64,000 nt of DNA from Pollutibacter soli. GTDB lineage: Bacteria > Bacteroidota > Bacteroidia > Chitinophagales > Chitinophagaceae. Where the stretch lies: assembly GCA_029269725.1 (NCBI GenBank), contig JARJHS010000003.1, positions 526,292 to 590,291 of the forward strand. Direction: 5' to 3'. The notes beneath the pieces are model-generated. The model did not search any database, was not told where the DNA came from, and saw only the letters and a program-made list of their open reading frames with translations. Below, piece after piece: positions 132 through 42,420 of the stretch (the first letter of the stretch is position 1; each line of letters opens with the position of its first letter). The position numbers and the translations under genes are program-made.

Positions 132-188
132 TCAGTAGACAGTAGAGCAGACAAGAAGTTTATAGTTAATAGTTGAAAGTGACAGTTG
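132..188. repeat. Degenerate 7-bp-period array (cagtaga / tatagtt units)
   Basis: Units cagtaga, cagtaga, gcagaca, then tatagtt, aatagtt, gaaagtg, acagttg follow one another with a 7-base period. The array fills most of the gap between the left-edge gene and the 3' end of rsmI. It belongs to the window-wide set of heptamer-periodic arrays. Confidence 0.55.
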
Positions 189-219
189 TTTCCGGCGATT
201 GACGGAAATTATACATATG

Positions 220-933
220 CTATTCCTCAGCCGCGTCATCTTCCTGAAACTGGTCTTTGGAACTCTTTCCCGGCCTCCCCGCAACAACAATTACGATCTC
301 ACCTTTCACGGTTTTCGAAGTAAAATAATCATGCACTTCCTGCAGCGTTCCCCTTTTATTTTCTTCAAATTTTTTCGAAAGTTCGCGGCTGACGGAACAT
401 AGCCTTTCAGCACCAAAATATCCGATCATTCCGGCCAGTGTTTTGACCAGTCGCATGGGCGATTCATAAAAAATCATCGTGCGTTCTTCGTTTGTCAATG
501 TGGTCAGCAAAGTATGTCTGCCTTTTTTCAGCGGAAGAAATCCTTCAAAACAAAAACGATTTGTTGGCAGACCGCTTACTACCAGGGCAGGTACAAATGC
601 TGTGGCTCCTGGTAAACATTCGACTGGCACACCTTCTTTAATACATTCCCTTACGAGATAATAAGCCGGGTCCGAAATTCCAGGGGTACCCGCGTCCGTA
701 ATCAAAGCGATTTTCTTTCCCTCCTGCAATTGTTTTACAAGATGAGCAGACACTTTGTGTTCATTATGCTGGTGATAGGGAGTAAGTGGTTTGCTGATAT
801 TGTAATGCTGCAGCAAAACGGAAGAAGTCCTGGTATCTTCTGCAAGAATAAAATCAACTTCCTGCAACAATTGTACTGCGCGGAAAGTGAAGTCTGCCAG
901 ATTTCCTATCGGTGTTGGAATGATATGAAGCAT
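220..933 (-). CDS. rsmI: 16S rRNA (cytidine(1402)-2'-O)-methyltransferase RsmI
   Basis: RsmI transfers a methyl group from SAM to the ribose 2'-O of C1402 in the 16S rRNA decoding centre. The 237-residue protein has the tetrapyrrole-methylase fold signature: PTPIGNLADFTFRA near the N-terminus, LAEDTRTS after it, and the SAM-binding stretch LITDAGTPGISDPA near residue 77. The first Met leads straight into the conserved start, so no trimming is needed. It is shorter than the roughly 285-residue E. coli protein and lacks that C-terminal extension, ending in an acidic tail (EDDAAEE). It follows purS on the minus strand, and a heptamer array separates the two. Identification is firm from the motifs. 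Confidence 0.93.
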   Translation of the reverse strand: MLHIIPTPIGNLADFTFRAVQLLQEVDFILAEDTRTSSVLLQHYNISKPLTPYHQHNEHKVSAHLVKQLQEGKKIALITDAGTPGISDPAYYLVRECIKEGVPVECLPGATAFVPALVVSGLPTNRFCFEGFLPLKKGRHTLLTTLTNEERTMIFYESPMRLVKTLAGMIGYFGAERLCSVSRELSKKFEENKRGTLQEVHDYFTSKTVKGEIVIVVAGRPGKSSKDQFQEDDAAEE

Positions 934-935
934 CT

Positions 936-974
936 ACGTTGAACGTTGAACGTTAAACGTTTAACGTTGAACGT
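936..974. repeat. AACGTT-type 7-bp array at the purS 3' end
   Basis: Five to six ACGTT cores spaced seven bases apart (units acgttga, acgttaa, acgttta). The core AACGTT is self-complementary, so either strand can fold. The array runs into purS: its last codons (His-Val-Gln-Arg) and the TAA stop are written in repeat sequence. Confidence 0.85.
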
Positions 975-1209
975 GGATTTCAAAATACTCCATTACAGGG
1001 TTGGCGAGTAATTTTTTGCTTGCTTCTTCTGCAATTGATTTTGCTTCCTCAGGTGAACCTGCTTCTACCTGCAGCATAATGTGTTTGCCGATACGCACAT
1101 CCTCAATTGATTTCATACCAAGGTTACCCAGTCCGCCAAGCACAGCTTTCCCTTGCGGATCCAGCAGATCTTTCAACGGCATCACATCTATATGCACGTT
1201 ATAATTCAT
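961..1209 (-). CDS. purS: Phosphoribosylformylglycinamidine synthase subunit PurS
   Basis: PurS is the small subunit of FGAM synthase (PurS-PurQ-PurL) in de novo purine synthesis; the PurS dimer bridges the glutaminase and synthetase subunits. A longer frame is open upstream, but the real start is the ATG at 1207-1209, giving 82 residues, the family's usual size. The sequence MNYNVHIDVMPLKDLLDPQG and the later GNLG and VRIGKHI segments are typical of PurS. The start overlaps the pssA stop (ATGA), so the two are translationally coupled in one operon. The C-terminal HVQR and the stop codon come from the adjoining heptamer array. The purL and purQ genes are not in this window. Confidence 0.88.
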   Translation of the reverse strand: MNYNVHIDVMPLKDLLDPQGKAVLGGLGNLGMKSIEDVRIGKHIMLQVEAGSPEEAKSIAEEASKKLLANPVMEYFEIHVQR

Positions 1210-1967
1210 GCAGTTTGTTTTTTGTAAATTAAAGATATAAGAATATAAGCGAGGAATACCACCGGTACCGCAAGCCATTTTAAAGTTATAGCTGCTAACA
1301 CAGCAACTACTACAAGTATGATTTTGGGAAGATTTCCTTTTGCACCTCCACCAGAAAATTTCATGCTGATCATCGGAAGGCGCGAAACCATCAGGTAACT
1401 GATTACAAAAATCAGGAGATATAATACCCAACGATTGAGTAGCAGTTGCTGAACATTAAAATAGTTATACAGAAGAATCAGCGGGAAAGATGCAATCAGC
1501 AGCCCGGCAGCCGGAGCAGGAATGCCGGTGAAACCGGAAAGATTGGGCTCGCTGATATTGAAGCGGGCAAGTCTCCATGCTGCAGCTGCAGGAACCAGGA
1601 ATGCAGGAATTAAACTGAACATTGCCACATCCAGTCCATCTTCCGTAGAAGCAAAACTAATCCTGAGCAACTGATACATGATCATTCCCGGAGCAACACC
1701 AAAACTCACTACATCTGCAAGTGAATCGAGTTGCTTTCCCATTTCGGATGTTGACTTGAAGAGACGCGCGACAAAACCATCCAGGAAATCAATTATGCCT
1801 GCAATACCAATACAAACAGATCCCCACCATATTTTTTCCGGAAGATAGATCTTCCAATCCTGCCCGTTATAATTGATGATGCCTTCCCCGGTTTGTAATA
1901 TAAAAACGATGGCCAGGCAACCTGCAATCAGATTCAGCAGCGTAAACAGGTTAGGGATTTGTTTCAT
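1206..1967 (-). CDS. pssA: CDP-diacylglycerol--serine O-phosphatidyltransferase
   Basis: This membrane enzyme makes phosphatidylserine from CDP-diacylglycerol and serine, the first step to phosphatidylethanolamine. The 253-residue protein begins MKQIPNLFTLLNLIAGC. The CDP-alcohol phosphotransferase motif D-G-x2-A-R-x8-G-x3-D-x3-D is complete, with Asp63, Gly64, Ala67, Arg68, Gly77, Asp81 and Asp85. About seven hydrophobic segments follow the family topology. The class is certain; serine is inferred from overall resemblance to short bacterial PssA proteins. It is the first gene of an operon with purS, and a good promoter lies upstream at 2002-2034. Confidence 0.88.
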   Translation of the reverse strand: MKQIPNLFTLLNLIAGCLAIVFILQTGEGIINYNGQDWKIYLPEKIWWGSVCIGIAGIIDFLDGFVARLFKSTSEMGKQLDSLADVVSFGVAPGMIMYQLLRISFASTEDGLDVAMFSLIPAFLVPAAAAWRLARFNISEPNLSGFTGIPAPAAGLLIASFPLILLYNYFNVQQLLLNRWVLYLLIFVISYLMVSRLPMISMKFSGGGAKGNLPKIILVVVAVLAAITLKWLAVPVVFLAYILISLIYKKQTA

Positions 1968-2001
1968 ATTTTATTGGTCGCTTGAGCATTGAAAAGCCGG
2001 G

Positions 2002-2034
2002 CAAATATAGCAAGTCAAAACTTGAGGCAACAAA
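2002..2034 (-). promoter_or_regulatory. Bacteroidota promoter for pssA-purS
   Basis: The minus strand carries TATATTTG (2002-2009) and a TTTG at 2031-2034, 21 bases upstream. This fits the Bacteroidota -33/-7 pattern. The expected start of transcription is about 30 bases before the pssA ATG. Confidence 0.55.
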
Positions 2035-2039
2035 CGTTT

Positions 2040-3332: not shown

Positions 3333-3576
3333 AATTCAAAAAGCATAAAAATACTGATAAAAAAGCGCGGATTTTTTAAAGTCTGCCCTTAACCATCATC
3401 CAAAAATGTTGAAAAAATATTTTTTTTCGAAGAAATTCAAAGTGAAACGGTTAAACTTTATTCAAAACTAACACCTGTAAGTTTTTAGCAGTAATATTCT
3501 ATCATTAATCGAATTAGCAGATAATTTTCAATTTCCAGTTGAAAACCAAGCGATTTTTAGATATTATTCAAATAAT

Positions 3577-3601: not shown

Positions 3602-5215
3602 ATGCGCATGACGATTACTGCCAACCCATTGATTCCGAGAGAGAAAATTCTTCATTTCGGTCTTCGTAACTCGGACAGGATACATTACCAGTTGAGTCCG
3701 CAGGAACTTGCTGCTGCCGCCGTTTTACGCGGCGAAGCTGTTTATAATGATACCGGCGCGCTGGTTATAAATACAGGCGAATGTACCGGTCGTTCTCCCA
3801 AAGACAAGTATATTGTTCTGGATGAACTGACCAGGGATAATGTCGACTGGAACAATTTCAACCAGCCGATTGATTCCATCAGCTTCGACCGGGTTTTTGA
3901 AGAAATTACTGAATACCTCGCGACAAAGGATATGTGGGTCAGGGATTGCTACGCTTGTGCGGATGACAGATTTCGGGTGAACATAAGAGTAATCACCGAA
4001 AAGCCTGCGGAGAATCTTTTTGCGTATAATATGTTTTTACGACCTTCCGAAGAAACCCTGGAGACCTTCCGCCCGAACTGGCAGATCATCTCTGCTTCCG
4101 GTCTCAAACTGGACCCACGCTTTTGCGGAACAAGGAGTGGCAATGCTGCCATCATCAGTTTCAAACACAGGATGATCCTTATTGCCGGGACAGCTTATAC
4201 GGGAGAAATCAAAAAGGGAATTTTTACCGTCCTGAATTATATTCTTCCCCTGGAAAAGGATGTGTTGAGTATGCACTGTTCTGCAAACAAAGACAACGAT
4301 GGAAACACTGCACTTTTCTTCGGTCTCAGTGGAACAGGAAAAACGACGCTTAGTGCAGACCCCAGGAGGATGCTGATCGGCGATGATGAACATGGGTGGA
4401 CAGCTGAAGGTGTATTCAATTTTGAAGGCGGATGTTATGCAAAATGCATCCAGCTATCAGAAGAAAAAGAACCACAGATTTTCCATGCCGTAAAACCCGG
4501 TGCTCTGGTAGAAAACACGAGGTTTTTCGAAGGCACCAATACCATCAATTTTGATGATGGTTCGATCACTGAAAACACAAGGGTTTCCTATCCGCTGGAT
4601 TTTATTGATAATGCCGCGAGCCCTTCAGTTGGAAATAATCCCAAACACATATTCTTCCTCACCTGCGATGCTTACGGCATTTTACCACCCGTTTCACAGC
4701 TGACACCTGAACAGGCCATGTACCAGTTCATCAGCGGATACACCGCAAAAGTTGCAGGAACAGAGGCGGGAGTAACCGAACCCAAAGCTACATTCAGTGC
4801 TTGTTTTGGTGCACCTTTTCTTCCATTACATCCCGGACATTATGCCCAGATGCTGGGAAGAAAATTAAAAGAACACAATGCAAAAGTGTGGCTGATCAAT
4901 ACAGGATGGACCGGCGGACCTTATGGAACCGGAAGCCGCATAAAACTTGCTTATACGAGGGCACTTATTACTGCGGTTTTAGAAGATAAATTGAATATGG
5001 ATGAAAGTGAAATTTTCCCGGTGTTCAATTTCAGAATTCCGAAATATTGTGAAGGTGTTCCGGATCAAATATTAAATCCGGCGAATACCTGGTCTGACAA
5101 AAATAACTTTACTGAGAAGTCAAAATCTCTTGCGAAACTTTTCACAGAGAATTTTCAAAAATATGCGGATGGAGTTTCATCAGAAATTAAAGCTGCAGCC
5201 CCCGCTAGAATTTAA
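3602..5215 (+). CDS. pckA: Phosphoenolpyruvate carboxykinase (ATP)
   Basis: This enzyme converts oxaloacetate and ATP to phosphoenolpyruvate, CO2 and ADP, the entry step of gluconeogenesis. The 537-residue protein has the ATP-type signatures: RSPKDKYIV near residue 65, the P-loop GLSGTGKTTLSADP near 241, the metal-binding LIGDDEHGW near 258, and FEGGCYAK after it. Its length matches ATP-dependent PckA (about 540). Translation may start at Met1 or Met3 (MRMTITAN); the choice adds only two residues. The gene stands alone with its own upstream box and a strong rho-independent terminator at 5244-5273. Confidence 0.96.
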   Translation: MRMTITANPLIPREKILHFGLRNSDRIHYQLSPQELAAAAVLRGEAVYNDTGALVINTGECTGRSPKDKYIVLDELTRDNVDWNNFNQPIDSISFDRVFEEITEYLATKDMWVRDCYACADDRFRVNIRVITEKPAENLFAYNMFLRPSEETLETFRPNWQIISASGLKLDPRFCGTRSGNAAIISFKHRMILIAGTAYTGEIKKGIFTVLNYILPLEKDVLSMHCSANKDNDGNTALFFGLSGTGKTTLSADPRRMLIGDDEHGWTAEGVFNFEGGCYAKCIQLSEEKEPQIFHAVKPGALVENTRFFEGTNTINFDDGSITENTRVSYPLDFIDNAASPSVGNNPKHIFFLTCDAYGILPPVSQLTPEQAMYQFISGYTAKVAGTEAGVTEPKATFSACFGAPFLPLHPGHYAQMLGRKLKEHNAKVWLINTGWTGGPYGTGSRIKLAYTRALITAVLEDKLNMDESEIFPVFNFRIPKYCEGVPDQILNPANTWSDKNNFTEKSKSLAKLFTENFQKYADGVSSEIKAAAPARI

Positions 5216-5273: not shown

Positions 5274-5308
5274 ACGTTGAACGTTGAACGTTGAACGTTT
5301 TACGTTGA
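5274..5308. repeat. AACGTT-type 7-bp array between convergent genes
   Basis: The units acgttga, acgttga, acgttga, acgtttt, acgttga abut the T run of the pckA terminator and end four bases before the dNK stop codon. It is the cleanest heptamer array of this type in the window. Confidence 0.85.
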
Positions 5309-5311
5309 AAC

Positions 5312-5947
5312 CTAGAACAACCCGTAAAGCTCTGAGTCTACCCTGCTGATAATCTCCCCAAAGTGTTCATCGTTTTCAGCGAATTTATTTTTATCAACAT
5401 TGATCACCAATAACGGCCCTTCCTTATACCCTTCGATCCATTTATTGTAATATTCGTTTAGGCGTTTCAGGTAGTCCAGTCGAATATTTTCCTCGTATTC
5501 GCGACCGCGTTTCTGAATTTGTCCGACAAGTGTAGGAACAGACGCCTGGAGATAAATCATCAGATCCGGTGGTTTGATCATCTGCCTCAGCGTCTGGAAA
5601 AAATCAAAGTAGTTATCGTAATCACGTTTGCTCATCAGGCCCATCTCGTGCAGGTTCGGCGCGAAAATGTGCGCATCTTCATAAATAGTCCGGTCCTGAA
5701 TGATTGTCTCGGTACCTCTGTTGATATCCAGCAACTGGGTCAGCCTGTTATTCAAAAAATAAATCTGGAGGTTAAAGCTCCAGCGTGGCATGTCTTCATA
5801 AAAATCGAATAGGTAGGGATTCTGATCTACGTTTTCAAATTGCGGAATCCAGCGATAGTGTTTGCTGAGCATTTCAGTAAGCGTGGTTTTACCCGCACCA
5901 ATGTTTCCTGCTATCGCAATATGTTTTGGTTTTTTCAGCTTGGCCAT
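5312..5947 (-). CDS. Deoxynucleoside kinase (deoxyadenosine/deoxyguanosine kinase family)
   Basis: It phosphorylates deoxynucleosides to their 5'-monophosphates in nucleotide salvage. The 211-residue protein opens with a P-loop, GNIGAGKTT (residues 14-22). Further on are the DRTIYEDAHIFA segment, equivalent to the D/E-R-S motif contacting the sugar, and the arginine-rich lid QKRGREYEE. These are the marks of the dCK/dGK family, and the length is typical. Which base is preferred cannot be read from the sequence. It is convergent with pckA across a terminator and a heptamer array. Confidence 0.87.
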   Translation of the reverse strand: MAKLKKPKHIAIAGNIGAGKTTLTEMLSKHYRWIPQFENVDQNPYLFDFYEDMPRWSFNLQIYFLNNRLTQLLDINRGTETIIQDRTIYEDAHIFAPNLHEMGLMSKRDYDNYFDFFQTLRQMIKPPDLMIYLQASVPTLVGQIQKRGREYEENIRLDYLKRLNEYYNKWIEGYKEGPLLVINVDKNKFAENDEHFGEIISRVDSELYGLF

Positions 5948-7061: not shown

Positions 7062-7117
7062 AATACAGGAGACAGAATACAGAAACAGGAAACAGAAACA
7101 GAAAACAAAAACAGGAA
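7062..7117. repeat. 7-bp-period array (acagaaa-type units)
   Basis: The units atacagg, agacaga, atacaga, aacagga, aacagaa, acagaaa, acaaaaa keep a 7-base period. The array lies directly upstream of the trpS -7 box, where a -33 element would be expected. It makes the trpS frame look longer than it is. Confidence 0.7.
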
Positions 7118-7195
7118 AAGAGTGTTTTTTCCGTGTTTTTTGTTTGACTTGAAGCCATTGTGTTTTAAGAAAGCGCCTGCAAATTGTCTCAGGCC

Positions 7196-7245
7196 GGCTG
7201 TTCCCTTTTGCCTTTTGCCTTACGCCTTTTGCTCCTTCTTCCTTT
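7196..7245. repeat. GGCTGTTCC nonamer followed by a ccttttg heptamer array
   Basis: GGCTGTTCC (7196-7204) leads into ccttttg, ccttttg, ccttacg, ccttttg, ctccttc, ttccttt (7204-7245), a strict 7-base period. The same nonamer occurs within or at the edge of the two arrays near 42.2-42.4 kb. Confidence 0.75.
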
Positions 7246-8342: not shown

Positions 8343-8367
8343 TGCGATCGATTAATCAATTAAATTG

Positions 8368-8395
8368 AGCCCGTTAGATGCGGGCTTTTTTATTT
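8368..8395 (+). terminator. Rho-independent terminator after the ABC ATPase gene
   Basis: The stem AGCCCG/CGGGCT (8368-8373 with 8381-8386) has a 7-base loop, then TTTTTT and TATTT. It ends the gatC-ATPase transcript and shows that the next gene needs its own promoter. Confidence 0.85.
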
Positions 8396-8442
8396 CAGGT
8401 GTATTTCCAAAGGGACTCGCCTGTCATATTGAAAATGATTTT

Positions 8443-9000
8443 ATGGCAACAAAAATTTATACAAGAACAGGAGATAAAGGCACAACAGGTTTAATCGGCG
8501 GCACACGGGTGCTAAAATCGCATTTGCGCATTGAAGCGTACGGCACTGTTGATGAACTCAATTCCTATTTGGGTCTTTGCAGGGATCATTTAAACGATTC
8601 GCGGAGCAGGGAAATGCTGAAAGGAATACAGGACAGATTGTTCACGATCGGTTCTTCACTCGCAACTGACCCGGAGAAAGAACCTAAAATGAAATTGCCG
8701 GATTTGAAGGAAGATGATGTTGTAATCCTGGAGAAAGACATCGATACGATGAATGAACAAATAACTCCGTTGAAGTCATTTATCATTCCTGGTGGAAATG
8801 TTGCAGTATCTCACCTGCATGTAGCCAGGTGTATTTGCCGTCGGGCAGAACGTTGCTGCGTAAGGCTGGATGCACAAAACGAAGAAGTGAGCGAGATAGT
8901 GATCAGGTATCTGAACCGGCTGAGCGATTATCTTTTTATCCTCTGCAGGTTTATTTCTCATCAACTCGGCGTTGAAGAATTACCCTGGAAACCACGTTAA
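8443..9000 (+). CDS. Cob(I)alamin adenosyltransferase (PduO-type ATR)
   Basis: It transfers the 5'-deoxyadenosyl group of ATP to cob(I)alamin, giving coenzyme B12. The ATG at 8443 gives 185 residues. The longer open frame begins inside the upstream terminator and is rejected. The ATP-binding N-terminal motif TRTGDKGTTGLIGG is followed by KSHLRIEAYGTVDELNSYLG. Later come FIIPGG and the helical RRAERCCVRL segment, both hallmarks of the PduO/MMAB family. The length agrees with the family (about 185-190). It is convergent with the lolD-like gene, with a heptamer array between the two. Confidence 0.92.
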   Translation: MATKIYTRTGDKGTTGLIGGTRVLKSHLRIEAYGTVDELNSYLGLCRDHLNDSRSREMLKGIQDRLFTIGSSLATDPEKEPKMKLPDLKEDDVVILEKDIDTMNEQITPLKSFIIPGGNVAVSHLHVARCICRRAERCCVRLDAQNEEVSEIVIRYLNRLSDYLFILCRFISHQLGVEELPWKPR

Positions 9001-9032
9001 ACGCTATACGTTTTACGTTCAACGTTAAACGT
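9001..9032. repeat. AACGTT-type 7-bp array between convergent genes
   Basis: The units acgctat, acgtttt, acgttca, acgttaa, acgt start at the base after the adenosyltransferase stop. They overlap the last two codons (Asp-Val) and the stop of the minus-strand LolD-type gene. Confidence 0.8.
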
Positions 9033-9681
9033 CGGCGATTCTACCATCTTTCATGTGAAGTGTCCGGTCACTCATGGATGCCAGTTCCTCATTATGTGTC
9101 ACGATCAGGAACGTCTGGCCAAATTCCTGTCTGAGACGTATAAAAAGATGGTGTAATTCGTTTGCATTGGCCGAATCGAGGTTGCCGGTGGGTTCATCGG
9201 CAAAAACAATTTCGGGCCGGTTTATTAAAGCACGTGCAACGGCCACTCTTTGCTGTTCTCCGCCGGAAAGTGCTGAGGGTTTATTTTCCTCCCGGTCTCT
9301 CAACCCCAGCCAGCCCAACAGCTCTTTTGCCCGGGCCTCTACCTCTTTCTTTTTTGTACCAGCGATCCAGCCCGGGATGCAAACATTCTCCAGTGCGGTA
9401 AATTCGGGAAGTAAATGGTGAAACTGGAATACAAAACCTGCATGAAGATTGCGAAAAGCAGCGAGCGGCTTCCCTTTCAGAAGATCCACACGCCTACCGC
9501 CCAGTTGGATTTCTCCTGAATCGGCATGATCAAGCGTACCCAGGATATGCAGTAAAGTCGATTTCCCCGCACCGGAAGAGCCAACTATACTCACTACTTC
9601 GCCTGATTTTATCATCAAATCCACACCTTTTAAAACCTGCAATTTTCCATAAAACTTGGTGACACCCTTGGCAACGAGCAT
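9025..9681 (-). CDS. lolD: LolD-like lipoprotein-releasing ABC ATPase
   Basis: A 218-residue ABC ATPase with Walker [11 protein letters not shown]-loop [17 protein letters not shown], signature LSGGEQQR and Walker [13 protein letters not shown]. The [10 protein letters not shown] segment and overall length match LolD, which drives release of lipoproteins from the inner membrane with LolC/E. No permease gene is adjacent, so the gene name is by resemblance only. The last codons and the TAA lie in an AACGTT array. It is the second solitary ATPase of this superfamily within 2 kb; the two differ clearly in sequence. Confidence 0.8.
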
Positions 9682-10074: not shown

Positions 10075-10106
10075 ACGTTGTACGTTAAACGTATAACGTT
10101 CAACGT
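10075..10106. repeat. AACGTT-type 7-bp array between convergent genes
   Basis: The units acgttgt, acgttaa, acgtata, acgttca, acgt occupy nearly the whole gap between the DUF2795 stop (10071) and the fabI stop (10109). Confidence 0.8.
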
Positions 10107-10108
10107 AA

Positions 10109-10921
10109 TTACTTCTCCATTTGTTCGATTACTTCCATAGTAACTCCTGTGTTCGAAAATCCGCCATCGTGGAATAAATTCTGCATCGTTACCATCCTGG
10201 TATAATCGGAAAACATGGCAACACAGAAATTCGCACAATCTTCACCCGTTGCATTTCCCAGGGGACTCATTTTTTCTGCGAAACCGATAAATCCATCAAA
10301 ACCTTTCACACCGCTACCGGCGGTTGTTCGGGTAGGCGACTGCGATATCGTATTCACACGCACTTTGCGTTTTCTGCCATAATGAAATCCGAAACTGCGG
10401 GCAACACTTTCAAGTAATGCTTTTGCATCCGCCATTTCACCATAATCAGGGAATACACGTTGAGCTGCTATATAAGACAAAGCCACAACACTACCCCACT
10501 CATTCAAAGCATCCAGATCATAAGCCGTGCGCAACACACGATGAAAAGACATTGCAGAAATATCAAGTGTTTTCTGGTTGAAACCGTAATCTATTTCAGT
10601 ATAAGATTTTCCTTTACGAACATTGATACTCATTCCTACAGAATGAAGGATGAAATCGAATTTTCCTCCAAAATGTTCGATACTTTTTTCCATCAGGTTT
10701 TTGAGATCATCCATATTCACCACGTCAGCTCCGATCACGGGAGCGTTCACCTGCTCAGCAAGTTTATTTATTTCACCCATACGCAAGGCAACCGGGGCAT
10801 TTGTTAATACCAGTTGTGCGCCTTGCTCATGGCATGCCACCGCAGTTTTCCAGGCCATTGATTTTTCATCCAGTGCTCCAAAAATTATCCCCTTTTTCCC
10901 CTGCAGTAATTGGTGAGTCAT
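10109..10921 (-). CDS. fabI: Enoyl-[acyl-carrier-protein] reductase (NADH)
   Basis: FabI reduces enoyl-ACP in the last step of each fatty-acid elongation cycle. The ATG at 10919-10921 gives 270 residues starting MTHQLLQGKKGIIFGALDEK. The FabI-specific SMAW motif follows the nucleotide-binding strand. The catalytic pair in Y-x6-K spacing is seen in YGEMADAK, after a Tyr in LSYIAAQRVFPDY. The C-terminal DGGFSNTGV is typical. The 14 extra codons open upstream are not conserved and are dropped. The gene is monocistronic or follows the small membrane protein gene 28 bases upstream. Confidence 0.94.
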   Translation of the reverse strand: MTHQLLQGKKGIIFGALDEKSMAWKTAVACHEQGAQLVLTNAPVALRMGEINKLAEQVNAPVIGADVVNMDDLKNLMEKSIEHFGGKFDFILHSVGMSINVRKGKSYTEIDYGFNQKTLDISAMSFHRVLRTAYDLDALNEWGSVVALSYIAAQRVFPDYGEMADAKALLESVARSFGFHYGRKRKVRVNTISQSPTRTTAGSGVKGFDGFIGFAEKMSPLGNATGEDCANFCVAMFSDYTRMVTMQNLFHDGGFSNTGVTMEVIEQMEK

Positions 10922-10949
10922 GTTAGGTATTTTTTGTAAAAATAAAGTT

Positions 10950-11162
10950 TTAACCAGATACAAAGTTCCTGAAACAAGCTACAGTTATTCCGAATAAAAG
11001 AATAATAATAAACACTGAATTTATCAGTAAAATGAAGTACAGTAGAAATCGTTTTATCGATTCTCCCGGCCTGATAAATTTTATCAGCAGCCTGTTTCCT
11101 AACCAGGTAAGGAAGGCAGCAACTACAAATAAGAAAAGAAGAAAATAATCTGTGGTGGTCAT
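10950..11162 (-). CDS. Small two-helix membrane protein, unknown
   Basis: The ATG at 11160-11162 gives a 69-residue protein starting MTTTDYFLLFLFVVAAFLTW. It has two strongly hydrophobic helices separated by a basic loop (NRLLIKFIRPGESIKRF), so both termini probably face the same side of the inner membrane. I recognise no family. It lies between recN and fabI on the same strand and is probably co-transcribed with fabI. A start 13 codons earlier is possible but adds residues unlike a membrane-protein N-terminus. Confidence 0.55.
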   Translation of the reverse strand: MTTTDYFLLFLFVVAAFLTWLGNRLLIKFIRPGESIKRFLLYFILLINSVFIIILLFGITVACFRNFVSG

Positions 11163-12972: not shown

Positions 12973-13006
12973 TACGTTATACGTTACACGTTTTACGTTA
13001 TACGTT
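12973..13006. repeat. AACGTT-type 7-bp array at the zinc-ribbon gene 3' end
   Basis: The units acgttat, acgttac, acgtttt, acgttat, acgttc span from the terminator into the coding end. The final Asn-Val codons and TAA of the minus-strand gene are repeat sequence. Confidence 0.8.
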
Positions 13007-13753
13007 CTTCGCTTGTTCCTGCAGTTCCTCATCCACAAGGATGCGGCCGCAGTTTTCACAAACGATAATTTTTTTGCGCTGACGAATTTCACTCTGCCTC
13101 TGCGGTGGAATCGCGTTATAGCATCCACCACAAGCATCACGAACGATCGCTACAACGGCTAAACCATTGCGATAGTTCTTACGGATCCTGTCGAAAGAAG
13201 CCAGCAGGCGCGGTTCAACTTTCTCACGTGCCGCTTTACTCATTTCTGAGTATTCTGTTTCTTCTTTCTCCGTCTCGCTGATGATTTTCTCCAGCTCGCC
13301 TTTCTTGTGTTTCAGGTTAGCTTCTTTGGTTGCGATATTTCTTTTCGCAGATTCAAGCAGGCGGGCCTTGTCAGAAATTTCTTCATTTGCATCTTTGATA
13401 TGCTTTTCCGCAAGCTTCGTCTCAAGGGTCTGCATTTCGATCTCTTTATTGATCGCTTCAAACTCACGGTTATTTTTTACATTCTCGCTTTGTTTTTCAT
13501 ACTTAGCGATCAATGCCTGTGATTCTTTTATCAGATTTTTCTTCTGCTCGATAAATTCAGTGATACCATTCACCTCTTCTTCAATTCTTGTTTCCCTCGC
13601 ATGCAAGCCCTGAATTTCATCTTCCAGATCACTCACCTCAATTGGCAACTCCCCTTTTAAAATCTGAATTTCATCCAGCTTACTTTCAATCTTTTGCAGA
13701 TTAAGCAGGGAAGAGAGCTTCTCTTCAACCGAATATTCTTTTACGTTAGCCAT
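12998..13753 (-). CDS. Coiled-coil protein with C-terminal C4 zinc ribbon
   Basis: The 251-residue protein is predicted to be mostly coiled coil from about residue 10 to 180, rich in Glu and Lys, followed by a zinc ribbon with two CxxC pairs: CGGC (in RDACGGCYNAIPP) and CENCGR. This is the architecture of the widespread DUF164/zf-RING_7 proteins. Their role is not settled, though a chlamydial relative acts as a chaperone-like factor. It lies six bases downstream of the Nif3-like gene on the same strand, so the two form an operon; this neighbourhood is common in Bacteroidota. It is not a nuclease or regulator by any visible motif. Confidence 0.82.
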   Translation of the reverse strand: MANVKEYSVEEKLSSLLNLQKIESKLDEIQILKGELPIEVSDLEDEIQGLHARETRIEEEVNGITEFIEQKKNLIKESQALIAKYEKQSENVKNNREFEAINKEIEMQTLETKLAEKHIKDANEEISDKARLLESAKRNIATKEANLKHKKGELEKIISETEKEETEYSEMSKAAREKVEPRLLASFDRIRKNYRNGLAVVAIVRDACGGCYNAIPPQRQSEIRQRKKIIVCENCGRILVDEELQEQAKNV

Positions 13754-22793: not shown

Positions 22794-23822
22794 GTGAAAA
22801 AGTTTAGATTACCATTCCGACAATTCTTCGCCATAGTAGCGGGAGTATTTATGATGGGAGAAACCGGTGCGCAGGATCTGCATTTCTCGCAGTTCTTCGA
22901 GGCACCATTGCTTCGCAATCCATCGCTGGCAGGTTTGTTCGAAGGTGACATTCGTGTGCAGGGGGTTTATCGCAATCAATGGAACAGTATTTCATTCCCA
23001 TACCAAACAGGATCACTTAATGCAGACTATAAATTTCCGGTAGGCAAAGGTGATGATTTCATGACGCTGGGAATTCAGACACTGTTTGATAAAGCAGGAA
23101 CCGTTGCACTGAATACGACCTACGTTATGCCGGCTGTGAATTTCCATAAAGCAGTGAGTGCAACAAGAAATTCATTTTTATCTCTTGGATTCATGGGCGG
23201 TATCGTGAGCAGGCGACTCGATCGTTCCAAAGTAACCACCAACAACCAGTATGACGGTTTTGGATACAACGGTTCTCTGCCTGACGGAGAAACTTTTGTA
23301 AACAACTACAGTTATTTTGATGCCAGTGTGGGTATGAGTTTCAACAGTACATTAGGCTCAGAAGAACAACACACCTATTTCATCGGACTCGCCTATCATC
23401 ATTTTACAAAGCCGGTCAATTCTTTTTATAGAAATATCAATCACCTGCCCAAATGGGTTGTTTCCGGTGGATTGAAAATGTTTATCGATCCTTTTTCATA
23501 CGTTACTTTCCATGCAGATTATAGCAGACAGGATCCTTTTGAAGAAGTCATTTTCGGTGGAATGTATTCAAGAAAACTGGGTGATGAAGATGTACCGACG
23601 GTAACTGTTCATGGTGGATTGTATTACAGGCTTGGTGATGCAGTTATTCCAGTTGTAAAACTTGATTATCATCCTTTCTCTCTCGCCTTCAGTTATGATG
23701 TAAATGCATCAAAACTTGCCACTGCAAGCCAGGGCCGCGGCGGTGTAGAGATTTCTCTTTCTTACATTGCCTTCGTAAATAAAGAGAATTCGACGAAGAA
23801 TTTGAAGTGTCCGAAGTTTTAA
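22794..23822 (+). CDS. PorP/SprF-family T9SS membrane protein
   Basis: A 342-residue outer-membrane protein of the family needed to export and attach type B T9SS substrates such as SprB. The start is GTG; no ATG fits, and the GTG gives a proper signal peptide (MKKFRLPFRQFFAIVAGVFM, cut near TGAQ). The mature N-terminus QDLHFSQFFEAPLLRNPSLA and the YRNQWNSI motif are the family's trademarks. Alternating strands to the end suggest a 14-stranded barrel. It lies 20 bases after the giant PKD gene and is surely co-transcribed, making it the probable dedicated partner of that cargo. Confidence 0.92.
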   Translation: MKKFRLPFRQFFAIVAGVFMMGETGAQDLHFSQFFEAPLLRNPSLAGLFEGDIRVQGVYRNQWNSISFPYQTGSLNADYKFPVGKGDDFMTLGIQTLFDKAGTVALNTTYVMPAVNFHKAVSATRNSFLSLGFMGGIVSRRLDRSKVTTNNQYDGFGYNGSLPDGETFVNNYSYFDASVGMSFNSTLGSEEQHTYFIGLAYHHFTKPVNSFYRNINHLPKWVVSGGLKMFIDPFSYVTFHADYSRQDPFEEVIFGGMYSRKLGDEDVPTVTVHGGLYYRLGDAVIPVVKLDYHPFSLAFSYDVNASKLATASQGRGGVEISLSYIAFVNKENSTKNLKCPKF

Positions 23823-23833
23823 AAAAATTGGTT

Positions 23834-23882
23834 GGTTGTTCGTTGTTCGTTATTCGTTTTTCGTTGTTCGTTGTTCGTTTGT
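23834..23882. repeat. Heptamer array of cgttgtt units
   Basis: Seven consecutive 7-mers: ggttgtt, cgttgtt, cgttatt, cgttttt, cgttgtt, cgttgtt, cgtttgt. They start 12 bases after the PorP stop. The 359-base gap 23823-24181 is otherwise made of this array, the next one, and no supportable gene; an open frame at 23807-24139 is repeat-derived. Confidence 0.85.
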
Positions 23883-23986
23883 GGTACCAAATACAGGTGA
23901 GTGAAAAACATCCTCCAATTCGTTTTCGACATTACAGCGAAACACTCTGCGGAGGAAACTATTTCGTCCGCGACATCGATTCGGTC

Positions 23987-24042
23987 CGACAACTGACAAC
24001 CGGCAACCTGCAGACAGGCCGACTACCAATAACTAAAGTGAC
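23987..24042. repeat. Degenerate heptamer array (cgacaac units)
   Basis: The units cgacaac, tgacaac, cggcaac, ctgcaga keep a 7-base period (23987-24014) and fade through caggccg, actacca, ataacta, aagtgac. It is the second array of this gap, with a different unit from the first. Confidence 0.5.
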
Positions 24043-24780: not shown

Positions 24781-25122
24781 ATGAAAAATTTTACCATCAT
24801 TTTTATTGTGGCATTATTTTTCTCGCTGAACGGGAACGCGCAAACGAATACTGCGTCTACTGCTCAGGAGGTCGCAAGGATTGTAAAATATTTCCCCAAC
24901 CCGGCAACTACTTATATCAATTTTGAGTTCCGGAATTTCCTCGAAAAAAATCACACGCTACAGATCTATAATTTCCTCGGCAAAAAAATCCTTGATGTAC
25001 AGGAACTCACCTCACGTACACAGGTTAATCTCACCAATTATACGCGCGGTGTTTACATTTTCCAGGTAAAAGACAAATCGGGAAAAGTAGTTGAATCAGG
25101 AAAATTCCACGTTGAGAAATAG
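24781..25122 (+). CDS. Mini secreted protein, essentially a lone T9SS type A sorting domain
   Basis: A 113-residue product: a signal peptide (MKNFTIIFIVALFFSLNGNAQ) followed by about 15 linker residues. The rest is a type A sorting domain: YFPNPATTYINFEF, LQIYNFLGKKIL, then RGVYIFQVKDKSGKV and a terminal KFHVEK. There is no room for a catalytic or binding domain. It is not an obvious fragment: the frame is intact, it has its own -7 box and it ends cleanly. It may be a small surface component, a decoy or competitor for the sorting machinery, or a relic of a larger cargo gene. Domain call firm, function unknown. Confidence 0.85.
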   Translation: MKNFTIIFIVALFFSLNGNAQTNTASTAQEVARIVKYFPNPATTYINFEFRNFLEKNHTLQIYNFLGKKILDVQELTSRTQVNLTNYTRGVYIFQVKDKSGKVVESGKFHVEK

Positions 25123-25127: not shown

Positions 25128-25156
25128 ACGTATAACGTATAACGTTCCACGTTATA
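25128..25156. repeat. AACGTT/ACGTAT-type 7-bp array between convergent genes
   Basis: The units acgtata, acgtata, acgttcc, acgttat bridge the 29-base gap between the mini sorting-domain gene and rlmI. The last rlmI codons (Asn-Val) and TAA fall at its edge. Confidence 0.75.
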
Positions 25157-26330
25157 CATTGTCGACCTGCACTATCAGGAACTTCAGGTAATTCGTATTC
25201 TCCAGCCCGGGAACAATAGGGTGATCAGAAGATTGTGCCTGGAAGGTTACCTGCCTGATCTTCTTACGGGCATCCTTAGCTGCCATTTCAATGACCTGCA
25301 AAAACATTTCCGGTGGAACAAGATTCGTACAGGAAGAAGTAACCAGAAATCCTCCCGGCCTGACGAGTTTCATTCCGCGGAGATTGATTTCTTTATAACC
25401 GGTAATTGCTTTCTGTACTGCTGACCGGGTCTTTGCAAAGGAAGGCGGATCAAGCATTACTACATCCCATTTCTTGCCTTCCTTTACCCATTGTTTCAAT
25501 ACGTCAAAAGCATTTACTTCCTGGAACCTGCAGATATGATCAAGCCCATTAAGCTTTGCATTTGCTTCGGCCATCGCTACCGCCTGCGCAGAAATATCCA
25601 GACCTAAAACAGATTTTGCTCCATAATATCCTGCGTGAATTTCAAAAGTGCCGGTATAACAAAAAGCACCAAGAACATCAGCATCTTTCACGATGTTTGA
25701 TATCGCTCGGCGATTATCCTGCTGATCGAGAAAATAACCGGTCTTCTGACCTTTCTCGACATCAGCATAGAACTGCAGGCCGTTTTCTTTCAGGGTGATT
25801 TTTGTATCAAACGGCGCGGATAAAAATCCCTTATGCTGTGTCATTCCTTCCAGCTCACGAACCGGAACATCATTTCTTTCAAAAATTCCCTTCGGAGTAA
25901 AAATCGTGTTTAATGCATCAACAATTGCTGGCTTCCAGACATCAATTCCCAATGCGAGTGTCTGGATGACAAAATAATCATTGAACTTGTCAATGATCAG
26001 CTGGGGGAGTTCATCAGCTTCTCCAAACACAAGACGGCAATTTTCAGTATATCCAAGTTTTTTCCGGTAGTTCCAGGCTCGTTTAAGCCTGTTCAGAAAA
26101 AATTCTGCGTTGATGGTTTCATTGGGATTACGGGTGAGAATCCTCGCAGTGATCATTGATTGAGGATTTACGAATCCCCGGCCCACAAACTTGTCATCAT
26201 ACGTATAGATATCGGCTATATCACCACCGTGGAGCTCATCGTCCATCTGATCGATCTCATTGGAGAAAACCCAGGGGTGTCCGGCAAGTAGCCTGCCTGC
26301 GACCTTTTTCTTCAGGATAATTTTTAACAT
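25152..26330 (-). CDS. rlmI: 23S rRNA (cytosine-C5)-methyltransferase RlmI-like
   Basis: A 392-residue SAM-dependent RNA methyltransferase like RlmI, which makes m5C1962 in 23S rRNA. The N-terminal PUA domain (about 1-75: RLLAGHPWVFSNEI, GDIADIY) and the central EEHEH-like segment precede the Rossmann domain. That domain has motif I VLGAFCYTGTFEIHAG, motif IV DPPSFAKTRS and the catalytic cysteine motif TSSCTNLVPP. Length and order match the family (396 in E. coli). The start MLKIILKKK is the natural one and lies only five bases from a -7 box. Confidence 0.9.
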   Translation of the reverse strand: MLKIILKKKVAGRLLAGHPWVFSNEIDQMDDELHGGDIADIYTYDDKFVGRGFVNPQSMITARILTRNPNETINAEFFLNRLKRAWNYRKKLGYTENCRLVFGEADELPQLIIDKFNDYFVIQTLALGIDVWKPAIVDALNTIFTPKGIFERNDVPVRELEGMTQHKGFLSAPFDTKITLKENGLQFYADVEKGQKTGYFLDQQDNRRAISNIVKDADVLGAFCYTGTFEIHAGYYGAKSVLGLDISAQAVAMAEANAKLNGLDHICRFQEVNAFDVLKQWVKEGKKWDVVMLDPPSFAKTRSAVQKAITGYKEINLRGMKLVRPGGFLVTSSCTNLVPPEMFLQVIEMAAKDARKKIRQVTFQAQSSDHPIVPGLENTNYLKFLIVQVDNV

Positions 26331-27070: not shown

Positions 27071-28225
27071 ATGTCAAAAAGAGATTATTATGAGGTGTTA
27101 GGTGTAGGAAAATCATCATCTGCTGATGAGATTAAAAAAGCCTACAGAAAAGTGGCGATGCAGTTTCACCCTGACCGAAACCCGGGAGATAAATCTGCAG
27201 AAGAAAAATTTAAGGAAGCTGCCGAAGCATATGAGATTTTAAGCGATCCTGATAAAAAGAGTCAGTATGATCGCTTTGGTCATGCAGGCCTTGGAAACAA
27301 TGGAGGTTTTGGAGGTCATGGTATGAATGTCGATGACATTTTCAGCCAGTTCGGCGATATTTTCGGTGACGACCTGTTGGGAAATTTTTTTGGCGGTGGC
27401 GGTGGACGTGCAAGGGGCAGTCGCGGTCGTGGATCAAGAGGAACCAACCTCCGTATCAAGCTTAAGATGAATTATGAGGAGATTGCAAAGGGCGCTTCCA
27501 AAACCATCAAGGTTAAAAAATATGTGACCTGTAATACCTGCTCTGGTTCAGGTGCAAAAGATAAACATGCTGTTCAAACCTGCGGAACCTGCGGCGGCAG
27601 CGGCCAGGTAAGAAAAGTCACCAATACTTTTCTCGGTCAGATGCAGACCGTAGCCACCTGCCCGAATTGTAATGGTGAAGGAACGACCATCACCAGCAAA
27701 TGCGGTAGCTGTAAAGGTGAAGGTCGGGTATATGCTGAAGAAACTGTAACGATCGAAATCCCTGCCGGTGTTCAGGAAGGAATGCAGTTGAGTCTGAGCA
27801 ATAAAGGCAATGCTGGCGAACGTGGTGGTGCCCCCGGTGATTTAATTGTACTTATCGAGGAAGAACCTCACCCACAACTGCAGAGAGAAGGCCTGAATGT
27901 GGTTTATGATCTTCACATATCTTTTCCTGACGCTGTTTTTGGTACCAATCTCGAAGTACCCACAATTGATGGTAAAGCAAAAATCAAGATACCGGCTGGA
28001 ACTCAGAGCGGGAAAATTTTCCGTTTAAAAGGAAAAGGTTTTCCGGCAATCAACTCCTATGAAAAAGGAGATCAACTGATTCACATGAATATATGGACGC
28101 CGCAGCAGCTGAGCGATGAGGAAAAATCAGCACTGGAAAAGATGCAGTCATCAAATAATTTTCAGCCTAAACCTGAAAAAGACGAGAAAAGTTTTTTTGA
28201 TAAAGTGAAAGAAATGTTTAGTTAG
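27071..28225 (+). CDS. dnaJ: Chaperone DnaJ
   Basis: DnaJ delivers substrates to DnaK and stimulates its ATPase. The 384-residue type I protein has a J domain (about 1-70, HPD at 33-35), a Gly/Phe-rich region ([11 protein letters not shown], then [12 protein letters not shown]) and the zinc domain with four CxxCxGxG modules: [24 protein letters not shown] and CGSCKGEG. The two-part C-terminal substrate domain follows ([28 protein letters not shown]). It is complete and second in an operon after grpE. A heptamer array and a strong hairpin follow its stop. Confidence 0.97.
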
Positions 28226-28237: not shown

Positions 28238-28268
28238 AACGTTCGTACGTTCAAGATCATACGTTAAA
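28238..28268. repeat. Degenerate ACGTT-type array after dnaJ
   Basis: The cores acgttcgt, acgttcaa and acgttaaatg are spaced unevenly. This is the weakest member of the AACGTT group, placed 12 bases after the dnaJ stop and just before the terminator. Confidence 0.5.
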
Positions 28269-28273
28269 TGTAA

Positions 28274-28308
28274 AACGCTGTTTCAAATGAATGAAACAGC
28301 GTTTTTTA
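28274..28308 (+). terminator. Strong rho-independent terminator after dnaJ
   Basis: A 12-base stem AACGCTGTTTCA/TGAAACAGCGTT (28274-28285 with 28291-28302) with a small loop, followed by a T run. On the other strand it is followed by TTTTACATTT, so it may also end the convergent gene. Confidence 0.87.
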
Positions 28309-39731: not shown

Positions 39732-39746
39732 GCGATCTAATTTCTG

Positions 39747-39754
39747 CAAAATTA
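39747..39754 (-). promoter_or_regulatory. -7 box (TAATTTTG) for the OMT-glucosaminidase-hpt operon
   Basis: On the minus strand TAATTTTG lies 15 bases before the TTG start at 39731 and inside the longer open frame. It argues for the shorter protein. No good -33 element was found. Confidence 0.45.
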
Positions 39755-39816
39755 CTTTGAATTCCTGAAAAGATTCGCAGTAAACAACAGATATCCAGTC
39801 GTTTAATGAATGAATT

Positions 39817-40512: not shown

Positions 40513-40558
40513 ACCGATAGGATTGAAAAATGATAATTCATATGGGCAGGAATACAAA

Positions 40559-40578
40559 GCCACTGCATCGGCAGTGGC
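40559..40578 (-). terminator. Hairpin after the symporter gene
   Basis: A perfect 8-base stem GCCACTGC/GCAGTGGC with a 4-base loop, read on the minus strand 37 bases after the symporter stop. Only a short T stretch follows, so it may be an attenuator or a weak terminator. Confidence 0.5.
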
Positions 40579-40614
40579 CCTGGCTTCAACTATAAAACGA
40601 TGGGAACAGGAGTT

Positions 40615-42129
40615 TTAGTTTGTGTTTTTTGCTGATGGTGAGGATATCAGCCAAAGACCGGCAAAGGTTAACAATCCATTGATGATCAGGAGCTCTATTC
40701 CTATGCGATAACCGCCGAACCAGTCGGCGGCATTGCGACTGAGGATATAACAAAGTACAGGTGCCACGAGGCAGATCAGCGTCACCCTGATGGAGTCGTT
40801 TAGTCTCCGTTTTGTAAGAATGCCAAAGGTAAAAAGACCCAGTAGCGGCCCGTAGGTATACCCTGCCAAATCAAGCACAATATTGATGATTGATTTGTTA
40901 TTGATCCATTTAAAGATCAGGATGCAAAGCATGAATATAACGGTAAAGCTCAGGTGTACGATCATGCGTGTACGTTTCCTCTGCTGCTCTGTTATTTGCT
41001 GATTTCTTTTCAGGCCAAGTATATCAATACAGAACGACGATGTTAATGCAGTGAGTGCCCCATCAGCGCTGGGAAATAAGGCCGATATCAACCCGATGAT
41101 AAAAATGATCCCGATCGCCTGCGGCATTTCAAACATTGCTGCAGATGGAAACAGATCGTCGCCGATAATATTTTTTCCATTAGCCAGAAATGTTGTTCCC
41201 TCATATTGCGCATTGCGCGATAGCATAAAAAGATACAGGAGTCCGCCAAGTACTAAGAAAAGCAGTGTGACAATAACCATCACCACAGTAAAACTTTTGA
41301 TGTTTTTCTGTGAGTTCTTTAAAGTGTTTACGCTGATATTTTTCTGCATCATCTCCTGGTCAAGACCGGTCATTGCAATTGCAATAAAAGCGCCACCGAT
41401 AATACTTTTCAGAAAAAATGTGCGGCTGTTCACATCGGTATCAAAAATGCGTGTGTAACCCTTATCGCTCATGAGCTGCATTGCTTCTCCAAAACCAAGG
41501 TTCAGGTTATTGAGGATATAAACGATACAAACAACCAGGCCCAATAACATGAATGTTGTCTGCAGGGTATCAGTATATACAATAGTTTTTACCCCGCCTT
41601 CAAAAGTATAAAGAAGGATCATCAGTAATATCACAAATGCAGTAACAGTAAACGGTACTCCCAGTCTGTCCAGGATAAAAATCTGCAGAACATTAATCAC
41701 GAGGTACAATCTTGCTGTGGCGCCAACTGTTCTCGAGATCAGAAAAAACAATGCACCTGTTTTATAAGAGAAGGTGCCAAAGCGATGTTCAAGATAATTG
41801 TAGATAGAGGTCAGGTTCATTTTATAGTACAAAGGAATCAGTACATACGCAATGACTGCATAACCGAACAGATAACCGATTACTACCTGGAAATACGAGA
41901 ATGCCTTGAATGTGCCACCCGTAAAATCGCCCACAGTTCCCGGCACGGAAACAAATGTTACACCGGATAACGAAGTACCGATCATACCAAAAGAAACCAG
42001 TACCCAGTTGGAACTTTTATTACCTATGAAAAAGGAATCATTGGTAGCATTTCGTGAAGTAAACCATGCTACACCAAGTAGCAACAGAAAGTAACCGATT
42101 ACAAAACTAAAGAGCAGTGTTGCAGACAT
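40615..42129 (-). CDS. Sodium:solute symporter (SSS family)
   Basis: A 504-residue integral membrane protein with about 13 hydrophobic helices. The N-terminal segment SGVTFVSVPGTVGDFTGGTF matches the SSS region around helix 2-3. The GLISALFPSADGALTALTSS segment is the SSS signature that lines the sodium site, and LALTSS-like packing follows. Substrate cannot be told; sugars, amino acids, sialic acid or proline are all possible. It is transcribed away from the divergent LOG gene across a gap full of heptamer arrays. Confidence 0.9.
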   Translation of the reverse strand: MSATLLFSFVIGYFLLLLGVAWFTSRNATNDSFFIGNKSSNWVLVSFGMIGTSLSGVTFVSVPGTVGDFTGGTFKAFSYFQVVIGYLFGYAVIAYVLIPLYYKMNLTSIYNYLEHRFGTFSYKTGALFFLISRTVGATARLYLVINVLQIFILDRLGVPFTVTAFVILLMILLYTFEGGVKTIVYTDTLQTTFMLLGLVVCIVYILNNLNLGFGEAMQLMSDKGYTRIFDTDVNSRTFFLKSIIGGAFIAIAMTGLDQEMMQKNISVNTLKNSQKNIKSFTVVMVIVTLLFLVLGGLLYLFMLSRNAQYEGTTFLANGKNIIGDDLFPSAAMFEMPQAIGIIFIIGLISALFPSADGALTALTSSFCIDILGLKRNQQITEQQRKRTRMIVHLSFTVIFMLCILIFKWINNKSIINIVLDLAGYTYGPLLGLFTFGILTKRRLNDSIRVTLICLVAPVLCYILSRNAADWFGGYRIGIELLIINGLLTFAGLWLISSPSAKNTN

Positions 42130-42195
42130 TGAGGTTATGGATTTGGCCGGAAGATAAGGAAAAACGAAATGCGAGTAAGTAGTGGGTAAGCAGGA

Positions 42196-42237
42196 GTTTA
42201 TAGTTCATAGGAACAGCCGGCTGTTCTTTGCAGCCGA
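42196..42237. repeat. Heptamer array with palindromic GAACAGCCGGCTGTTC
   Basis: The units gtttata, gttcata, ggaacag, ccggctg, ttctttg, cagccga keep a 7-base period. The first two are the reverse complement of the aactata/aactatg units at 42354-42420. In the middle is a perfect 16-base palindrome (42211-42226), and GGAACAGCC (42210-42218) is the reverse of the GGCTGTTCC nonamer. The 326-base gap 42130-42455 holds only this array, the next one and a -7 box. Confidence 0.7.
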
Positions 42238-42353
42238 CAAACTGAAAGTTAACCAGGTACGACTTTTTTTAAAAAAACGGATCCGTTGTCCATATCATGA
42301 AACGGACTAAAGATTGTTTATTTCGCTATTTATCAACAAAATCTGAATTTCAA

Positions 42354-42420
42354 AACTATGAACCATGAACTATAAACTGGCTGTTCCAAACTATGAACTA
42401 TGAACTATGAACTATGAACT
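42354..42420. repeat. Heptamer array of aactatg units with in-phase GGCTGTTCC
   Basis: Nine units hold the phase over 67 bases: aactatg, aaccatg, aactata, aactggc, tgttcca, aactatg, aactatg, aactatg, aactatg, aact. The nonamer GGCTGTTCC (42379-42387) interrupts the units without breaking the 7-base phase. It lies just before the LOG gene promoter box. Confidence 0.88.

Follow-up and report, generated by a model that had tools for sequence, protein, structure and literature searches.

Period-7 intergenic arrays in Pollutibacter soli, and a spaced ACGT motif found mostly near stop codons

A 64-kb window of the Pollutibacter soli genome (here G000; 6.12 Mb in 37 contigs, 99.99% complete, 0.16% contamination) contains short arrays that repeat every seven bases. 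The window, by which we mean the whole 64-kb stretch, is C23:526292-590291; together with 800 kb of contig C1, 400 kb of C12 and 400 kb of C32, the sequence covered amounts to 1.664 Mb, or 27% of the genome, with genes taken as open reading frames (ORFs) from a simple longest-ORF caller. The period-7 arrays are confirmed as real and mostly intergenic. One spaced motif, WACGTW followed by a single free base and repeated in exact 7-bp phase, makes up about two fifths of them. Arrays with ACGT in their consensus are referred to below as class I, and those without it as class II. The features of the window are as follows, in window coordinates.

936..974, no strand: class I array of 5.6 units that overlaps the end of ORF 961-1431 (minus) and lies immediately upstream of the ORF 220-933 (minus) start
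5274..5309, no strand: class I array between the convergent ORFs 3602-5215 (plus) and 5312-5947 (minus), directly after a terminator-like hairpin
8994..9032, no strand: class I array filling the gap of the convergent ORFs 8365-9000 (plus) and 9025-9681 (minus)
10075..10106, no strand: class I array before the stop of ORF 10109-10963 (minus), with five ACGT spaced 7 bp apart
12973..13006, no strand: class I array that overlaps the stop of ORF 12998-13753 (minus) and adjoins a terminator-like hairpin
25128..25152, no strand: class I array between the convergent ORFs 24781-25122 (plus) and 25152-26330 (minus)
28238..28275, no strand: irregular ACGTT tract, phase not constant, after ORF 27071-28225 (plus) and followed by a terminator-like hairpin
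7065..7118, plus strand: class II tract of AATACAG/ACAGAAA words, mixed period
7196..7202, plus strand: GGCTGTT (AACAGCC on the minus strand), at the edge of array 7204..7232
7204..7232, plus strand: class II array of CCTTTTG (GCAAAAGG on the minus strand), 4.1 units
23831..23879, plus strand: class II array of GTTGTTC (AACAACG), 7 units, just after ORF 22794-23822 (plus)
23986..24008, plus strand: short class II tract of GACAAC words, 3.3 units
42212..42225, no strand: AACAGCCGGCTGTT palindrome beside the weak 42196 tract
42353..42378, plus strand: class II array of AACTATG, 3.7 units
42379..42385, plus strand: GGCTGTT between two AACTATG arrays
42389..42420, plus strand: class II array of AACTATG, 4.6 perfect units, upstream of ORF 42456-43016 (plus)
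132..175, plus strand: weak tract AGTTTAT AGTTAAT AGTTGAA, not recovered by the lag-7 scan
42196..42211, plus strand: weak tract of about two AGTTNAT units, not recovered by the lag-7 scan

The initial annotation had placed heptamer tracts at 14 positions. Ten of these were recovered by a lag-7 scan that assumes no unit, as arrays starting at 931, 5267, 7055, 7197, 8998, 12965, 23827, 23985, 25118 and 42383, and an eleventh, at 10075-10106, has five ACGT at exact 7-bp spacing. Eleven of the 14 tracts are clear; those at 132 and 42196 hold few imperfect units, and that at 28238 is irregular. At 7062 a tract is present, but its period is a mixture of 7, 13 and 20 bp. The arrays do not run across the whole window, as had been proposed, since the scan shows none beyond 42426. 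Seven of the ten period-7 arrays it found are intergenic, and each other period from 2 to 13 yielded 0-2 arrays.

The relatives compared with G000 are other species of the genus, sampled as 235 kb of G033 (about 70% identical to G000), pieces of eleven other genomes of the genus, and ten loci of G031 (15 kb) selected by array hits. Most are represented by a single piece of 3-20 kb, and in one batch of G033 contigs 17 of 20 were picked from lists of array hits.

The 800 kb of C1 hold 72 period-7 arrays (61 intergenic) versus 1-19 at other periods up to 13, the largest of the latter counts falling at multiples of 3, mostly within genes. At a stricter threshold, the 1.664 Mb of G000 yield 114 arrays at period 7, 70 at 14 and 26 at 21, and 0-9 at each of the other periods from 4 to 20; the corresponding counts in G033 are 60, 47 and 21, with at most 9 at others. 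Lag-7 identity in noncoding C1 is 0.299, compared with 0.264-0.276 at lags 4-6 and 8-10, and the coding DNA of C1 shows no lag-7 excess; autocorrelation of the whole window without separation of coding DNA masks the signal. The lag-7 excess that had been named as a check on the tracts is therefore present in the 27% of the genome covered, where it is period-specific and mainly intergenic. These are the features of heptameric intergenic repeats, namely an exact 7-bp unit in excess, mainly intergenic, at many loci. Among the 114 arrays, 48 are class I and 66 class II. A five-unit ACGTTNN scan of genome contigs gave at least 108 stretches, with 246 arrays at period 7 versus 4-28 at other periods between 5 and 11; these statistics are biased by the selection and are used only as a contrast.

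Since selecting runs of ACGT fixes the core in advance, the columns of class I were assessed in arrays detected blind to columns, at a slightly lower threshold and with AACGTTN as the best match (67 arrays with 329 units in G000; 33 with 168 units in G033). In G000, mismatch to the array consensus is 0.04-0.09 in the ACGT columns, 0.17 and 0.28 in the W flanks, and 0.43 at N; the G033 values are 0.02-0.11 for ACGT and 0.52 for N. Of the units, 95% and 93% have A or T in the flanking columns. Distances between ACGT cores in noncoding C1 and the window fall at 7 bp (113), 14 (83), 21 (49), 28 (23) and 35 (11), with 0-3 at each distance up to 40 bp off the multiples of 7. Over 74 G000 runs of at least three ACGT, the free base is C in 60, T in 71, A in 68 and G in 38 of 237 cases, i.e., 41% G+C, next to 42% in the genome sample and 37% in noncoding DNA. 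Neighboring units in these runs agree at the free base at a rate of 0.325, versus 0.258+-0.036 for a random draw, and in G033 at 0.221 versus 0.252+-0.049; the agreement is 0.889 in arrays with an ACGT core from other genomes. The free base thus varies almost independently from unit to unit, and fresh heptamer duplication does not explain class I, whose units lack near-perfect tandem copying: they have a free column, near-independent spacers and a weak copying trace only.

These results revise the view that the arrays share a period and no sequence. Several words do occur in one genome. However, one core is common to about two fifths of the arrays, and AACAGCC repeatedly borders others, so that sequence is partly shared among them; in the window itself, 936, 5274, 9001, 10075, 12973 and 25128 are all WACGTW-N, and 28238 has the core irregularly. 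Nor do they show a single mechanism that generates or spreads heptamers, as first suggested: variation in class I is confined to certain columns, unlike that expected from plain heptamer duplication.

Class I also has a characteristic position. Intergenic runs of at least three ACGT lie within -25 to +60 of a stop codon in 52 of 67 cases, versus 34% of random noncoding placements (p=2.4e-13), and 15 of 27 such runs in G033 lie near a stop codon versus 20% expected. In C1 and the window, 17 class I arrays are in convergent, 13 in tandem and 1 in divergent regions, of which 121, 455 and 121, respectively, are available. Of 50 gene ends that bear an array, 5 are followed by a terminator-like hairpin, versus 165 of 727 array-free ends (pooled p=0.034). 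The notion that the arrays are strings of stop codons was rejected: the fraction of G000 units with a stop is 0.761 in sense and 0.484 in antisense, yet shuffling the columns yields 0.771+-0.015, and in G033 the antisense fraction is the higher one (0.820, versus 0.580 in sense).

The 66 class II arrays are built from AACAACG/AACGAAC, AACTATG, AACTAAG, AAGTAGT, AAAGTTG, AAAACTG, AATACAG, AAAAGGC and rarer words; neither this list nor class I includes a word with a GGG run (G-quadruplex). Perfect arrays exist, e.g., (AACAACT)11 and (AACTAAG)7, and the variation of AACGAAC, AAAGTTG and AAGTAGT is likewise concentrated in two columns. A blind count of words at class II edges ranks AACAGCC first, at 21 of 66 arrays versus 0.4 expected, and in G033 it borders 9 of 30 versus 0.16. 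The same word read on the other strand, GGCTGTT, precedes a 7-phase stretch in 35 of its 87 noncoding copies (16 of 24 in G033), before many different words. The G-rich strand of class II is directed away from the closest gene, whether at its 3' or its 5' end, by 29:7 in G000 and 18:0 in G033, counting arrays with unequal G and C that lie outside ORFs and at most 150 bp from a gene (36 of 66 and 18 of 30 arrays, respectively); this outward orientation is not seen in the G031 loci (5/13) or in other words in other genomes (19/33). Class II arrays are near a stop codon in 28 of 57 cases versus 33% (p=0.016), and in 13 of 25 versus 23% in G033.

Four consecutive ACGTTNN units occur in 3 of 60 genomes, G000 included: 116+151 matches in G000, 157+165 in G033 and 8+0 in G036. 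The 5274 slot is filled with different words in sister species, in line with the earlier interpretation. In G033 these are arrays of GAAGTAN and AACTTAT, and in G015 an array of a 9-mer; a terminator-like hairpin stands next to each, at the same place. The 9001 slot is class I in both G000 and G033, and longer in the latter; the 25128 slot is class I in these two species and a hairpin in G036; and at the 10075 slot G033 has a terminator-like hairpin and a short ACGTT tract. Among 33 gene pairs syntenic with G033, 7 have an array in at least one genome; 4 of the 7 are convergent, and 3 of these have an array in both species. The 12973 array has no counterpart at that slot in G015 or G036, the 7204 array is not at the matching slot in G033, G015 or G036, and the 23831 array is not at that in G033 or G036. 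The 7065-7118 tract is missing from the corresponding G033 region, relative to which window positions 7065-7232 include about 190 extra bases.

G031 is array-free in its first 13 kb, yet array-rich elsewhere. GGCTGTT followed by four NACT in 7-bp phase has 43+49 matches in G031, and any match is found in 5 of 60 genomes. The G031 loci read (NNNAGTC)n-AACAGCC-AAATGCA, with modules spaced by about 40 bp that flank the intergenic center on either side; in some cases this center holds a terminator-like hairpin. The triplets GGG, GTT and ATT are preferred beside AGTC (69/127, loci L323-L332), and neighbor identity is low (0.055 versus 0.111+-0.032), which may result from copied 40-bp modules.

Some further repeats and gene features stand on their own. 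In G015, two GCGAGAG-type heptamer arrays, inverted relative to each other, are separated by 24 bp (L242 3585-3665 and 3690-3759); this genome also has 8-bp arrays at L245 5261-5290, 5745-5788 and 9736-9791 and a 9-bp array at L242 5712-5755. The Chloroflexi genome S1bins75 (L206) carries eight different non-ACGT heptamer words, in separate arrays, within 8 kb, and so combines a single period with an extreme variety of words. Noncoding C1, including C1:108987-109162, contains other dispersed palindromes without a 7-bp period, of ACCTGGCAGGTC-type and GCAAGTATCGGATACCTGG-type. A small ORF of G015 (L242 1251-1496, minus strand) has a window counterpart at about 961-1209, the end of which is overlapped by the 936-974 array; a frameshifted gene considered at 961-1967 was dropped, as G015 has a separate small ORF there. 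Lastly, a 291-bp tandem repeat (2.4 copies, 76% matches) at 61486-62184, within ORF 58609-63576 (minus; 1655 aa), perhaps reflects repeated domains of a large surface protein.

To explain the arrays we tentatively favor, reasoning mainly from these patterns, an account in two steps, i.e., growth by 7 nt in free intergenic DNA, after which the core and phase of class I are held by a tiling protein at gene ends. Tracts would arise and lengthen by 7-nt steps, through slippage or mispairing, where intergenic DNA is unconstrained. In class I, selection would keep the core and the phase while the spacer base drifts. A putative oligomeric DNA-binding protein would tile the array, one dimer per 7 bp, much as omega/ParB does on WATCACW heptads, and the array might serve as a roadblock or boundary at gene ends, partly replacing terminators. 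Because the core is palindromic and 17 of the 31 class I arrays of C1 and the window lie between convergent genes, such an array would act alike in both directions. Plain heptamer duplication fits the perfect class II arrays and the copying in other genomes; by itself, however, it leaves the column-confined variation, the placement, the edge word and the outward orientation unaccounted for.

Several observations weigh against this two-step account. We found no candidate binding protein; the omega family PF07764 matched 0 of 12 genomes, though the control for this search was silent too. To account for so many words in one genome, and for slots whose word differs between relatives, the binding proteins would have to be numerous or change quickly. 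Class I also retains a trace of copying, in that neighboring heptamers are identical at 0.21 versus 0.14+-0.02 after column shuffling; whole spacers are alike within an array, 0.166 versus 0.093+-0.022 across arrays, but compared with 0.157+-0.019 within arrays. Read along the sense strand of the closest gene, the free base favors purines over pyrimidines by 128:56 in G000, and so is not wholly free; G033 lacks this bias (24:26). When convergent regions and others are taken apart, the terminator deficit is weak (p=0.069 and 0.47, respectively), and the G033 pieces were mostly chosen by array hits.

Somewhat unlikely, in our judgment, is that neutral replication slippage with a preferred 7-nt step makes all arrays, which later decay by point mutation and have no function. 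A period that is independent of the word is what slippage predicts, as are perfect arrays such as (AACAACT)11 and (AACTAAG)7. In 104 loci of other genomes, moreover, neighboring units are copied beyond column composition (0.64 versus 0.51; 0.39 versus 0.22), and the weak class I trace noted above (0.21 versus 0.14) and the array-free slots in relatives point the same way. Slippage is at odds, however, with column-confined variation in class I and several class II families, and with near-independent spacers, stop-codon placement, the AACAGCC edge and outward orientation.

The arrays could instead be arms of intergenic hairpins, extended outward in steps of 7 nt from a central palindrome like AACAGCC...GGCTGTT and acting as terminators in both directions or as stems at mRNA 3' ends. 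Support for this account is mixed, and we regard it as unlikely. Pairs of AACAGCC within one intergenic region are 10 inward, 1 outward and 6 in the same direction in G000, and 9, 0 and 24 in the G031 loci, but in G033 they are 0, 1 and 5. An array together with an inverted array is found in other genomes, and around a terminator in G031; C1:289155 is a nearly perfect palindrome. The real unit order folds slightly better than permuted orders (z -0.50+-0.16, n=48; G033 -0.63+-0.22, n=17), yet this gain vanishes against spacers from other arrays (z -0.09+-0.17; G033 -0.11+-0.35), and many arrays are single.

Distinctly unlikely is a so far unrecognized seven-base-step system shared by bacteria of many phyla, either a family of proteins tiling gene ends as one dimer per 7 bp, with a fixed step and core words that diverge between species, or an enzyme extending intergenic edges by a templated core plus a free base. 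Slots would then keep a 7-phase array while its word is replaced, and seven-base-step arrays would be a fast-evolving boundary code of bacterial genes.

We consider it improbable that a mobile or dispersed element copies the array and its AACAGCC edge as a module between intergenic sites. The constant edge word beside different arrays would suit such an element, as would the modules of about 40 bp that recur at many G031 loci and the extra bases at window 7065-7232. Class II loci, however, have no common long sequence, and class I spacers are not shared modules. Integron-like attC cores were rejected, as the integrase TIGR02249 is below the cut-off in 12 of 12 genomes and over it in none. Telomerase-like addition by a reverse transcriptase was likewise rejected: RVT_1 is present in G033, G005 and G028 but absent from G000, G015, G036 and G031, and because it is missing from these array-bearing genomes, a reverse transcriptase of this family is not needed. 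The Y1 (RAYT) transposase of REP elements, PF01797, found in 10 of 12 genomes, does not discriminate array-bearing genomes, as it occurs in all five known carriers (G000, G033, G031, G015 and G036) and in five of the seven others. An assembly artefact, for which we found no supporting point, is next to inconceivable given the completeness, contamination and contig number of the genome and the same class at the same slots, 9001 and 25128, in the separate assembly of G033.

If class I arrays are tiled binding sites, as in the two-step account, the number of uncharacterized boundary elements at gene ends in G000 would be a few hundred, extrapolating from 74 runs in 27% of the genome. The free-column statistic, outward orientation, edge word and replacement of the word at a fixed slot separate copying from selection, and are applicable to any genome.

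Heptameric intergenic repeats, to which the initial annotation had turned, are the right precedent for these arrays. The STRR heptanucleotide repeats of heterocystous cyanobacteria are tandem heptamers with more than one sequence per genome, as here; we know of no ACGT free-base class among them. In the open-access literature we found nothing on such a class, on the AACAGCC edge or on heptamer arrays in Chitinophagales, subscription papers being mostly outside this search.

In many bacterial genomes, heptamers are reported to outnumber all other long simple repeats (Mrazek 2007, via MacGregor 2015, PMC4679880), and the guess that slippage occurs over 7 nt as the contact length of the polymerase is credited to Mrazek 2007 by both MacGregor 2015 (PMC4679880) and Rehm 2015 (PMC4692102); this guess is the only explanation for heptamer abundance so far. 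TAACTGA direct repeats are described from Beggiatoaceae, cyanobacteria and some Bacteroidetes (MacGregor 2015, PMC4679880). As here, they are heptamer arrays between genes, with mixed heptamer assemblages in some Bacteroidetes; unlike here, in the main genome studied they lie mostly just upstream of start codons and consist of a single word whose near variants are rarely repeated (PMC4679880). Omega/ParB of plasmid pSM19035, a ribbon-helix-helix protein, binds as one dimer per contiguous 7-bp WATCACW heptad and needs at least 4 contiguous heptads, direct or inverted, for full activity (PMC9499535). Class I shares the contiguous 7-bp sites and the W flanks, but its ACGT core differs from the non-palindromic WATCACW core, which occurs at six plasmid sites of 7-10 repeats at promoters; the comparison is one of a possible likeness of working, not of membership.

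Also close are the Xanthomonas and Nostoc heptameric intergenic repeats, GGGAATC / GGGGA(T/C)T (Rehm et al. 2015, PMC4692102), a paper that also mentions three tandem heptanucleotides in Calothrix. Upstream of genes, these repeats lie mostly at 0-50 bp and on the non-coding strand, and the rule given is that the G-rich strand is the coding strand after genes and the non-coding strand before them (PMC4692102). They resemble the arrays described here in the 7-bp unit, the mostly intergenic position, the many loci, and a length and sequence that vary between relatives, and, as in class II, the G-rich strand points away from the gene (class I being palindromic). They differ in having one G-rich, G-quadruplex word family per genome, compared with the several words, free-base class and AACAGCC edge found here. 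Thus, we conclude that the P. soli arrays are a variant of the heptameric intergenic repeats known from Xanthomonas and Nostoc, similar in geometry, with class I placed as a variant because its units are not near-perfect tandem copies.

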